A stretch of 64,000 nucleotides of DNA, from positions 1 to 64,000 of the forward strand of contig JAGWWC010000002.1 of NCBI GenBank assembly GCA_018970545.1. Reading direction: 5' to 3'. The notes below the pieces were generated by a model that was not told where the DNA came from, ran no database searches, and saw nothing but the letters and a program-made list of their open reading frames with translations. This document shows, one piece after another, positions 727-60,949 of the stretch (position 1 is the first letter of the stretch; the number at the start of each line of letters is the position of its first letter). Source of the DNA: Betaproteobacteria bacterium. Lineage in GTDB: Bacteria; Pseudomonadota; Gammaproteobacteria; Burkholderiales; Burkholderiaceae_A. Made by a program: the position numbers and the translations under genes.

Positions 727-1347
727 ATGGAACTCAAATTACTCAATGATTCGGGCCAGGCCTCTGGCAGTGTTCAGGCCAACGACACGATTTTTAATCG
801 CGATTTCAATGAGCCCTTGATTCATCAAGTGGTTGTTGCTTACCAGGCCAACGCCCGCAGTGCGAACCGCAAGCAAAAGGGCCGCTCAGAGATCAACAAA
901 TCGACCAAAAAGCCCTGGCGCCAAAAGGGAACTGGTCGCGCCCGCGCAGGCCGCGCCTCCAGCCCGCTGTGGCGGGGCGGCGGCAAGATCTTCCCGAATT
1001 CGCCGGAAGAAAACTTCTCGCACAAGGTCAACAAAAAAATGTACCGGGCGGGGGTACGTTCGATCCTCTCGCAGCTGGCCCGCGAAGGCCGACTTGCAGT
1101 GGTCGACAAGTTCGAAGTCGAGGCCCCGAAGACCAAACTGATCGCTTCGAAACTCAAGCAAATGGGGCTCGAATCGGTGCTGCTCATTACCGATGCGTTC
1201 GATGAAAACCTTCATCTGGCATCGCGCAATCTTCAGAGCATCGCGATTGTGGAGCCGGAGTATGCGGATCCCGTATCGCTGGTGTATTTCGATCGCGTGC
1301 TGATGACACGTGGCGCGTTGGCCAAAGTAGAGGAGATGCTGTCATGA
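727..1347 (+). CDS. rplD: 50S ribosomal protein L4
   Basis: L4 lines the constriction of the nascent-peptide exit tunnel and, in enterobacteria, autoregulates the S10 operon. The 206-residue product has the extended basic loop [19 protein letters not shown] at about residues 61-79, which is the tunnel-facing arm, between two halves of an alpha/beta domain. The start follows AGGAC. The stop overlaps the rplW start in an ATGA, so L23 translation is probably coupled. Whether L4 represses this operon here cannot be judged, because the S10 leader is outside the window. Confidence 0.99.
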
Positions 1348-14062: not shown

Positions 14063-15076
<1,014 letters not shown>

Positions 15077-15095: not shown

Positions 15096-15125
15096 TTGGA
15101 AAGTTTTCTGTCTTAGACATATCAT
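15096..15125 (+). promoter_or_regulatory. Candidate promoter of the engB-linked small RNA
   Basis: TTGGAA (15096-15101) and TATCAT (15120-15125) are separated by 18 bases on the plus strand, matching sigma70 at 4 of 6 and 5 of 6 positions. Transcription would begin near 15132. No plus-strand protein gene lies downstream before the terminator, so the promoter would serve the small RNA only. The hemB start lies divergently about 25 bases away. Confidence 0.45.
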
Positions 15126-15131
15126 GAACAC

Positions 15132-15225
15132 AGGCGACTTGTCGTCTCCCGCTTCTCCTCCCTGAGCGGGTGCCTAACCCATTTAGGCGTTCCCGCCCGG
15201 CGATCACCTCGCCGGGTTTTTTTTT
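15132..15225 (+). ncRNA. Candidate small regulatory RNA between hemB and engB
   Basis: About 94 nt between a sigma70-like promoter and a strong terminator fold into three clear stems. CCCGCT (15148-15153) pairs with AGCGGG (15165-15170) and exposes the 11-nt loop TCTCCTCCCTG, a pyrimidine-rich sequence complementary to Shine-Dalgarno sites. GCCTAA (15172-15177) pairs with TTAGGC (15183-15188). The terminator stem is CCCGGCGA (15196-15203) with TCGCCGGG (15209-15216), followed by nine T. The orientation is convergent with engB and overlaps its last codons. Spot 42 (enterobacteria) and ErsA (Pseudomonas) also lie beside engB, so this may be a positional counterpart. Expression is not shown. Confidence 0.6.
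15196..15225 (+). terminator. Strong intrinsic terminator on the plus strand
   Basis: A perfect 8-bp stem CCCGGCGA/TCGCCGGG with loop TCACC is followed directly by nine T. It is the best terminator in the window, yet no plus-strand protein gene lies upstream of it (hemB and engB are both on the minus strand). Part of it encodes the engB C-terminus (Lys-Lys-Asn-Pro-Ala-Arg). Confidence 0.85.
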
Positions 15226-15905
15226 GCAACTTTCGGCTCGGGCTGGGCAGATGGCAGGTGCCACCATTGTGCAATTTTTTCGACCGCCTCGTCGCGGCCC
15301 AGTCTCTGGGAGGCCGAAAAAAGGCTGACTGAACAGTCTCTTCCCCAGGACGCTTTTTCTGCAGCAATTAGCCTGCGGGCCTGTGCCAGGGCGATCGCCT
15401 GCTCATTTCGGGTGAGTTTGTCGGCCTTGGTGAGCAGCACGTGAATTGGCCGATTGCGGCGATCGAACCATTGCAGCATTTGTCGATCAAGCGGCCCGAA
15501 GGGATGGCGAATATCCATGACCAAAATTAGGCCAACCAAGCTGGCCCGCGTCTCTAGAAATGTTGCAAGCTCCCTCTGCCAGCGGGCCTTGATTGCCTGG
15601 CTGACGGCCGCATAGCCATAGCCCGGAAGATCAACAAGCCGGCCCACCTCTTGCTCGTGGTGGTGCAGGGTGAAGACATTCATCAGCTGGGTACGCCCCG
15701 GGGTTTTGCTGCTAAAGGCGAGCCGTCGGCGGTTGCAGATTAAATTCATGGCCGATGACTTGCCTGCGTTGGAGCGGCCGGCGATGGCGATCTCGCCAGG
15801 CCCGTCGGCGGGCAGTTCGGCCGTTTTTGATGCGCTGGTCAGAAAGCTGATGTTTTGGATCCAATCCTTCAGAGGCGGCATTAATCCGTGGGCTGACGCG
15901 GTCAT
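15204..15905 (-). CDS. engB: Ribosome biogenesis GTP-binding protein EngB (YsxC/YihA)
   Basis: EngB is a TRAFAC-class GTPase needed for late 50S assembly. The 233-residue product has the P-loop GRSNAGKSS at about residues 43-51, switch I TPGRTQLMNVF, G3 VDLPGYGYAAVS and G4 LTKADKLTRNE. It is somewhat longer than E. coli YihA (210), with a Lys/Pro-rich C-terminal end whose DNA overlaps the plus-strand terminator. An ATG at residue 9 is an alternative start. It diverges from the cytochrome c4 gene. Confidence 0.97.
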   Translation of the reverse strand: MTASAHGLMPPLKDWIQNISFLTSASKTAELPADGPGEIAIAGRSNAGKSSAMNLICNRRRLAFSSKTPGRTQLMNVFTLHHHEQEVGRLVDLPGYGYAAVSQAIKARWQRELATFLETRASLVGLILVMDIRHPFGPLDRQMLQWFDRRNRPIHVLLTKADKLTRNEQAIALAQARRLIAAEKASWGRDCSVSLFSASQRLGRDEAVEKIAQWWHLPSAQPEPKVAKKNPAR

Positions 15906-15964
15906 CTCGACGGTGGACTCGACTAAAATAAGACAGTTAAATGTAATCGTTGCTGGGAGTGATT

Positions 15965-16672
15965 ATGCGTTGCAAGTTTGACATGGTTCATAAGCGCCTT
16001 CGCGTGCTGAAAAATGCACTGCGGGGATCGTTGTCAGTGGCCTTGTTTTCATCGGCTATGGTGGTGGGAGTCTCAACATCCGCAATGGCCGCTGATCCCG
16101 TGACCACAAAGAAACCCGTTGACATCGCCAAAGGCAAGGTTGCTGCAGCGGCAGTCTGCGCAGGCTGTCACATGCCGGATGGCAACAGCGTGATTGCTCA
16201 GAACCCGATTCTTGCCGGGCAGCATGCCGCCTACATTGAAAAGCAGCTTGTGAACTTTCGCCTAAAGCCAGGCGCCAAGGCGCCAGAGCGCAACAACGCC
16301 ATCATGCAGGGCTTTGCCACCATGCTCTCTGAAGACGACATGCGTAATCTCGGCGCTTTTTATGCATCGCAGACACCGAAATCCGCCTCACCCAAGCGCA
16401 AGGAATTGGTCGCAGCAGGCGAGCGTATTTATCGCGCAGGTATTCCGGAAAAGGGTTTACCAGCTTGTGCAGGATGTCATGGCCCTGGCGCTGCGGGGAT
16501 TCCGGCGCAGTATCCGAGACTTGCAGGTCAGCATCCCGAATACACTGAGGCCACGCTGAACGCATTTCGTGGCGGCCAGCGCAAGAACAGCAGCCAGATG
16601 ACCACCATCGCCTCGAAGATGTCCGACGCCGAGGTGGCCGCAGTCTCCGAGTACGTTGCCTCACTGCGCTGA
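15965..16672 (+). CDS. Cytochrome c4, dihaem
   Basis: Cytochrome c4 is a periplasmic electron carrier to terminal oxidases. The chosen ATG (15965) follows GGGAGT and gives 235 residues. An N-terminal signal peptide ends near SAMA-ADP. Two class I cytochrome domains each contain CAGCH (VCAGCHMPDG and ACAGCHGPGA) with axial Met candidates in QGFATMLS and SSQMTTIASKM. The System II haem-ligation genes follow, and they would attach its haems. The pair c4-engB is also found in pseudomonads. Confidence 0.95.
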   Translation: MRCKFDMVHKRLRVLKNALRGSLSVALFSSAMVVGVSTSAMAADPVTTKKPVDIAKGKVAAAAVCAGCHMPDGNSVIAQNPILAGQHAAYIEKQLVNFRLKPGAKAPERNNAIMQGFATMLSEDDMRNLGAFYASQTPKSASPKRKELVAAGERIYRAGIPEKGLPACAGCHGPGAAGIPAQYPRLAGQHPEYTEATLNAFRGGQRKNSSQMTTIASKMSDAEVAAVSEYVASLR

Positions 16673-60571: not shown

Positions 60572-60930
60572 GAAGTAAGTCGGGCGGCCGCTGCCGTGCA
60601 CAGCACGGGAGAGGAAGGTCCGGACTCCGTAGGGAAGGGTGACGGCTAACGGCCGTACGCAGCAAGCGATCGCGAGATCGCCCAAGGCGAGGAATAGGGC
60701 CACAGAGACGAGTAAGCGCGGGAAACTGTGCGGATGTGAAACGCGGTAACCTCCACCCGGAGCAACACCAAATAGGCGCATGCCCGGCTGAGCCGGAGAG
60801 GATGTCCCGTCCGATGTGCGCGGGTAGGTGGCTTGAGCCTGCTGGTAACGGCAGGCCTAGAGGGATGGTCGCTATAAGGCCCTGCATTGCAGTGCCTCGT
60901 AACAGAATCCGGCCTATAGACTTACTTCAT
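60572..60930 (+). ncRNA. rnpB: RNase P RNA (type A)
   Basis: This RNA is the catalytic subunit of RNase P, which matures tRNA 5' ends. The ends pair: GAAGTAAGTC (from 60572) with GACTTACTTC (60919-60928), forming P1. The universally conserved 5' P4 strand and J3/4 region is GGAAGGTCCGGACTCC within 60611-60628, and the conserved 3' partner is ACAGAATCCGGCC (60902-60914). Length, about 360, fits type A. A run of seven T (60930-60936) follows. The mature ends are approximate. Confidence 0.97.
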
Positions 60931-60949
60931 TTTTTTCACAGGGGTACTC

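Follow-up and report, generated by a model that had tools for sequence, protein, structure and literature searches.

Organization of the locus

The window (the whole stretch of 64,000 nucleotides that we analysed, from a betaproteobacterial genome) carries hemB, engB, and a cytochrome c4-like gene side by side. The plus strand of the gap between hemB and engB contains a promoter-like site, four hairpins, and a run of nine T at 15217-15225 (Table 1). The polA gene of this genome is on another contig (C64).

Table 1. Features of the hemB-engB region, with one further RNA gene of the window. The 5' end of the sRNA is set by convention at the first base of hairpin H1.
Feature	Position	Strand	Remarks
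hemB, delta-aminolevulinate dehydratase	14063..15076	-	divergent from the sRNA
sigma-70-like promoter, TTGGAA-18-TATCAT	15096..15125	+	9/12 consensus positions
anti-hemB sRNA gene	15132..15225	+	RF02837 core 15145-15225; roughly 94 nt
5' hairpin H1, AGGCGA/UCGUCU	15132..15147	+	outside the Rfam model
hairpin H2, CCCGCU-loop-AGCGGG	15148..15170	+	97.8% of cells paired
C-rich loop UCUCCUCCCUG, proposed Shine-Dalgarno seed	15154..15164	+	core CCUCCCUG invariant
hairpin H3, GCCUAA-CCCAU-UUAGGC	15172..15188	+	double changes in 6/6 pairs
intrinsic terminator, H4 plus nine U	15196..15225	+	9-pair stem (7 G-C); loop UCACC
engB (yihA), ribosome-biogenesis GTPase	15204..15905	-	convergent with the sRNA; ORF plus tblastn partner in relatives
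cytochrome c4-like gene	15950..16672	+	beyond engB
RNase P RNA, bacterial class A (Rfam)	60572..60932	+	210 bits

Using cmscan, we matched Rfam family RF02837 (anti-hemB) to 15145-15225 (+) with 69.4 bits (the gathering cut-off is 49.5), and the alignment covers model positions 1-81 of 81. Our extended covariance model R1, which was built from 82 mainly betaproteobacterial RNAs, gives 85.5 bits at 15125-15225. The window RNA is a member of the anti-hemB family, which has been little studied, and the RNA itself is not new. A first-pass annotation had proposed a candidate sRNA here, with a promoter, two hairpins, and a terminator with nine T on the plus strand. All of these elements are present, as judged by the sequence, the fold, and the RF02837 match. 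The sRNA is real, but it is already catalogued (as Rfam anti-hemB and as ncS04), and besides the two hairpins before the terminator there is one more, H1, which folds and is conserved.

In Burkholderia cenocepacia, anti-hemB is known as ncS04, an isolated transcript of 105 nt whose start was mapped by dRNA-seq (PMC5688073). Its 3' end was found by RACE, it gives a Northern blot signal, and it is bound by Hfq (PMC5688073). Its expression did not change significantly across seven conditions, and its authors proposed that unpaired CU-rich stretches occlude ribosome-binding sites (PMC5688073). Anti-hemB is also catalogued in B. pseudomallei (PMC3521395). The window RNA shares with ncS04 its sequence, its H2-H3-terminator structure, its position between hemB and engB, and its orientation. 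They differ in that the terminator loop of the window RNA is not C-rich; also, the Rfam model lacks the 5' hairpin. We add three things to what is known about anti-hemB: the 5' hairpin, an extension of the family to polA-engB loci that ties in ErsA and sX13, and a sigma-E-type promoter. We did not find the 5' hairpin, the gammaproteobacterial polA-engB extension with its link to ErsA and sX13, or the promoter in the open-licence literature on anti-hemB.

Four hairpins are maintained by compensatory changes

The predicted fold of the sRNA has an energy of -40.1 kcal/mol, versus a mean of -25.9 for 200 shuffled sequences (z = -4.5; none of the 200 was as low). The first-pass annotation had suggested a covariance search with an alignment of relatives. 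The stems and the loop are conserved in 82 mainly betaproteobacterial RNAs, with two-sided changes in 23 of the 26 pairs. Across these RNAs, 92.1% of cells are paired in the four-helix structure, versus 30-53% when the alignment is slid. In a set of 85 sequences, whose alignment was fitted to the structure, all 26 pairs covary and 94.2% of cells are paired (32-52% when slid). H1, which is missing from the Rfam model, has six pairs, and each of them shows compensatory changes (73 cells with double changes in the 82 sequences, versus 24.8 in shuffles), and 92.3% of its cells are paired, versus 31-51% when slid.

The plus-strand hairpin with the loop TCTCCTCCCTG is present in the window as described, and the loop core CCUCCCUG is unchanged in 82/82 aligned RNAs, although these loci were chosen via the H2 hairpin or the model, so the invariance of loop and hairpin is partly by construction. 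Runs of at least three C occur in loops 2 and 4 of the betaproteobacterial RNAs. The window's terminator loop is an exception, with UCACC where most relatives have CUCCCC.

We considered that the gap might hold just a terminator for transcripts from the hemB and engB sides, and no sRNA. A strong terminator does sit in the gap. However, hemB points away from it and no plus-strand gene needs one; upstream of it lie a promoter and three more hairpins that covary; and ncS04, the orthologue, is known as an isolated transcript of 105 nt (PMC5688073). We consider this reading very improbable.

Conservation and position in betaproteobacteria

Within the family, 15 of 26 genomes have a match above the RF02837 cut-off, and within the order 190 of 300 do. 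At least 120 genome contigs carry the exact 23-nt H2 hairpin, among them contigs of Methylophilales, Hydrogenophilales, Thiobacillus, Oxalobacteraceae, and Burkholderiaceae. At 142 of the 177 loci that we first examined, the loop adjoins a convergent engB. (Some of the 177 were picked by the hairpin, so conservation of the hairpin is partly by construction; conservation of position is not.) Two contigs, L055 (titled Klebsiella pneumoniae) and L144 (titled Bordetella parapertussis MAG), have hemB-RNA-engB loci of betaproteobacterial kinds that are characteristic of lineages other than those named; the Klebsiella title seems to be mistaken.

The terminator extends over the final 22 bases of the engB ORF. 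From its overlap with engB codons, the first-pass annotation had described the RNA as partly antisense to the 3' end of engB. The overlap in the window is as described, but its extent varies among relatives and it is probably incidental. Might the RNA nevertheless be a cis-antisense regulator of engB (or hemB), with no targets in trans? The overlap speaks for this, and so does the adjacency of the RNA to hemB or to engB, which holds with few exceptions among betaproteobacteria. But engB begins anywhere from about 47 to 400 bases away from the loop, it is the loop that is conserved, comamonad-type copies lie away from engB, and in gammaproteobacteria polA is found in place of hemB (see below). 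As the overlap is not conserved, we rejected a direct cis-antisense role on engB, and cis-antisense control in general seems unlikely. One comamonad-type locus, L195, has a pair of the RNAs away from engB.

A sigma-E-type promoter upstream of most relatives

The window's sigma-70-like promoter sits where most relatives carry a sigma-E-type promoter. Four sigma-70-like sites occur in the 4.5-kb region, versus 1.7 in shuffled sequences, and the window match alone is weak; its -10 box is not conserved at locus L003.

We take GAACTT-N14-18-TCTNA to be the sigma-E/AlgU pattern. Directly upstream of the RNA, 31 of 150 betaproteobacterial regions have an exact match to this pattern and another 33 match with one mismatch. 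At the same stringency, the opposite strand of the 150 regions gave no match, and neither did two control windows placed upstream. The motif starts are clustered within 11 positions, at -64 to -54 from the loop. Among 34 gammaproteobacterial loci, there are 7 exact and 6 one-mismatch motifs, versus 0.2 in shuffles. At the ErsA loci, GAACTT-like boxes are combined with TCAGA, TCACA, or TCATA. We did not find the motif at the sX13 loci that we examined.

The sigma-E motif is also absent upstream of the RNA in the window genus. There and in the Burkholderiaceae, sigma-70-like promoters are found instead of the sigma-E/AlgU type. Specifically, TATATCAT or TATATGAT (TATAT(C/G)AT) is present upstream of the RNA in 22/22 Burkholderiaceae regions, versus 3/130 elsewhere. 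The transcription start in B. cenocepacia, as computed from the published length of 105 nt, falls a few bases after TATAT(C/G)AT. A sigma-70-like promoter with the start just after it fits the unchanging expression of ncS04.

Related RNAs between polA and engB in gammaproteobacteria

R1 matches 110 of 274 genomes from across the class (E <= 0.001). We examined 38 loci from outside the Burkholderiales, comprising the top R1 matches and a spread of weaker ones. At 16 of these, polA lies upstream on the same strand and engB lies downstream on the opposite strand. Another 9 have engB only, 7 have polA only, 2 are inverted, and 4 have neither; where there is a single neighbour, the missing side is often beyond the piece of sequence that we fetched. 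Overall, polA or engB adjoins the RNA at 34 of the 38 loci, and 32 of these show the usual gene order and orientation. Since R1 carries no information about neighbours, this agreement is independent evidence. So the first-pass annotation's idea of a positional family that includes ErsA and Spot 42 was largely right: a downstream, opposite-strand engB is found at 25/38 loci and an upstream, same-strand polA at 23/38.

The Rfam anti-hemB model, which was built independently of our analysis, matches nearly all of the loci that we tested (E from 4e-11 to 0.005). Its cut-off is passed at 10 of 18 top loci and at 1 of 20 further loci. In an alignment fitted to the model, the gammaproteobacterial RNAs keep all four helices, with covariation. 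Runs of at least three C are found in loops 2, 3, and 4 of 38, 31, and 29 of the 38 RNAs. Like the window RNA, these RNAs combine the four-helix structure with a polA or engB neighbour, as expected for members of a proposed engB/polA sRNA family. Many gammaproteobacteria have the same RNA, with four hairpins, between polA and engB; in betaproteobacteria hemB takes the place of polA. This suggests that the family is old and is spread over beta- and gammaproteobacteria.

Among 398 genomes from across the phylum, Alphaproteobacteria and other classes gave few matches (E from 6e-5 to 1e-3), which we treated as background. For two gammaproteobacterial RNAs on the polA side (L249 3025-3128 and L254 3008-3120), we obtained matches to ar14 (E = 5e-4) and ar7 (E = 0.12), two families of alphaproteobacterial RNAs, hinting that the link may reach further. 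Matches to ar14 and ar7 occur at L249, L224, and L254, on the same strand and at the same place as the anti-hemB matches.

Some loci have more than one copy: there are four tandem RNAs between polA and engB in L248 (3001-3759) and two in L246. L233 and L240 have pairs of RNAs without polA or engB nearby, and the pair in L240 is close to tmRNA. L326 comes from a genome in which polA and engB are not neighbours; there the RNA (1227-1337, minus strand; 35.5 bits) still follows polA and has a sigma-E-like promoter.

Relationship to ErsA, sX13, and Spot 42

In pseudomonad genomes, Rfam matches confirm that ErsA (Pseudomon-1, RF01719) occupies the gap between polA and engB and that cytochrome c4 follows on the far side of engB. 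This bears out the earlier remark that pseudomonads share the cytochrome c4-engB neighbourhood. The spf gene of E. coli, which encodes Spot 42, is also located between polA and engB, and the RNA downstream of polA in Xanthomonadaceae is sX13 (RF02232). (Hits of an E. coli YihA probe were confirmed from their position and from a tblastn search that used the annotated E. coli gene as query.)

ErsA resembles the window RNA in converging on engB with cytochrome c4 beyond, and it resembles most relatives of anti-hemB in its C-rich terminator loop and sigma-E-type promoter, although the window copy lacks the latter. ErsA is strictly sigma-22 dependent (PMC7565897). It differs in its other neighbour (polA instead of the window's hemB), in having a U-rich single-stranded domain, and in lacking the CCUCCCUGAG hairpin. 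Like the gammaproteobacterial relatives, sX13 adjoins polA, and its C-rich loops were reported to repress via G-rich motifs near start codons. It is not beside engB, it was reported to be Hfq-independent, and we found no sigma-E motif. The window RNA departs from sX13 in that it is not beside polA and its terminator loop is not C-rich. Neither RF01719 nor RF02232 matches the window region, even when searched to E = 1. Spot 42, from enterobacteria and vibrios, shares the polA-spf-engB position and direction with the gammaproteobacterial relatives, but it lacks the C-rich hairpin, and its published regulation and targets differ.

We built a second model, R2, without ErsA, sX13, or Spot 42. It gives 21.8-31.3 bits at the ErsA loci, 29.3 bits for sX13, and a weak 15.5 bits for Spot 42. 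Elsewhere in those loci, the best R2 match is 13.1 bits, except at L321 (20.6 bits) and L320 (13.9 bits), where the match follows polA, in L321 on the opposite strand. With R1, spf is the best match of its region, with only 12 bits. The R1 and R2 scores of ErsA (12-31 bits) overlap those of RgsA (RF00628), which lies at a different genome site in Pseudomonas (L265, L269, L270, L272, and L275) and scores 21-32 bits with R1. So the scores of ErsA, sX13, and Spot 42 are not decisive alone, and we did not accept R1 scores of 20-32 bits as proof of membership. RgsA could be a distant paralogue or could share a C-rich architecture. We set aside the sampled genome-wide R1 matches from Pseudomonadaceae: none were at engB, and 5 of the 8 that we ran through Rfam were RgsA.

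Scans of intermediate RNAs against 4227 Rfam families give better evidence than these scores. RNAs matched by anti-hemB are also matched, on the same strand and at the same place, by sX13 (E = 0.001-0.02) at L231, L249, L254, and L251 and by ErsA (E about 0.06) at L222, L225, and L239. Thus the three Rfam models overlap weakly on the intermediates; none of the three belongs to an Rfam clan.

Homology of anti-hemB with ErsA and sX13 is probable, and homology with Spot 42 is possible. We lean towards the view that a single ancestor, an sRNA under sigma-E control at polA-engB, gave rise to anti-hemB, the polA-engB RNAs of many gammaproteobacteria, ErsA, sX13, and perhaps Spot 42. In betaproteobacteria it would have stayed beside engB when hemB took the place of polA, and some lineages would have rewired it to sigma-70. 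Less probably, anti-hemB, ErsA, and sX13 acquired the position, the C-rich loops, and the sigma-E promoter independently and converged on a favoured site. In favour of this, C-rich sRNAs are frequent, and our models score RgsA as well; the sX13 loci lack a sigma-E motif; and sX13 was reported to have no sequence similarity to Spot 42 or alpha-r7 (PMC3771888). Against convergence stand the graded intermediates at the same site, which match anti-hemB plus sX13 or ErsA, if weakly, on the same strand, and the sigma-E promoter that is common to ErsA and the relatives of anti-hemB. If descent from a single ancestor is correct, then this would be among the oldest traceable trans-acting sRNA genes. 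In 2013, the sX13 paper asked whether sRNAs at polA loci elsewhere are related and act alike (PMC3771888). Our intermediates suggest that they are.

Proposed role

We propose that the window encodes a trans-acting anti-hemB sRNA of about 94 nt with four hairpins, which represents the betaproteobacterial branch of the polA-engB family. We put the probability of this explanation at roughly 0.78. Its identity, structure, position, and promoter motif were computed; the pairing mechanism, the use of Hfq, the targets, and the role in stress are inferred, as follows. The invariant CCUCCCUG loop of H2 would pair with G-rich Shine-Dalgarno regions and block translation. In many relatives, the C-rich loops of H3 and the terminator may assist the pairing, and the U tail would serve Hfq. 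The first-pass annotation had also viewed the loop as anti-Shine-Dalgarno; it is indeed a conserved C-rich sRNA loop, and the function is our inference too. The C-rich loops of sX13, which act on G-rich motifs, are a precedent for covering the Shine-Dalgarno sequence (PMC3771888). In seven genomes of the window genus, the 14-nt complement of the loop is no more frequent than the reversed pattern. With no enrichment of such long complements, pairing, if any, has to be short, and we name no targets.

In the ancestor, the RNA presumably had a promoter of the sigma-E/AlgU type and hence probably acted as a repressor under envelope stress. Relatives that retain the sigma-E promoter are expected to use the RNA in this way, and the shared promoter makes such a role of anti-hemB in betaproteobacteria directly testable. 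A sigma-70-like promoter appears to have replaced the sigma-E type in the window genus and, separately, in the Burkholderiaceae, so expression of the RNA in the window genus is probably constitutive.

The Betaproteobacteria toxic sRNA or double-hairpin RNAs (RF02278), NcS27, and S17 are found in the same bacteria and also have CU-rich loops against ribosome-binding sites. However, these RNAs have two hairpins only, and in the window genome they are at a separate locus: a second C-rich sRNA, matching RF02278 with 68.6 bits, lies at C15:6832-6894 on the minus strand (L175).
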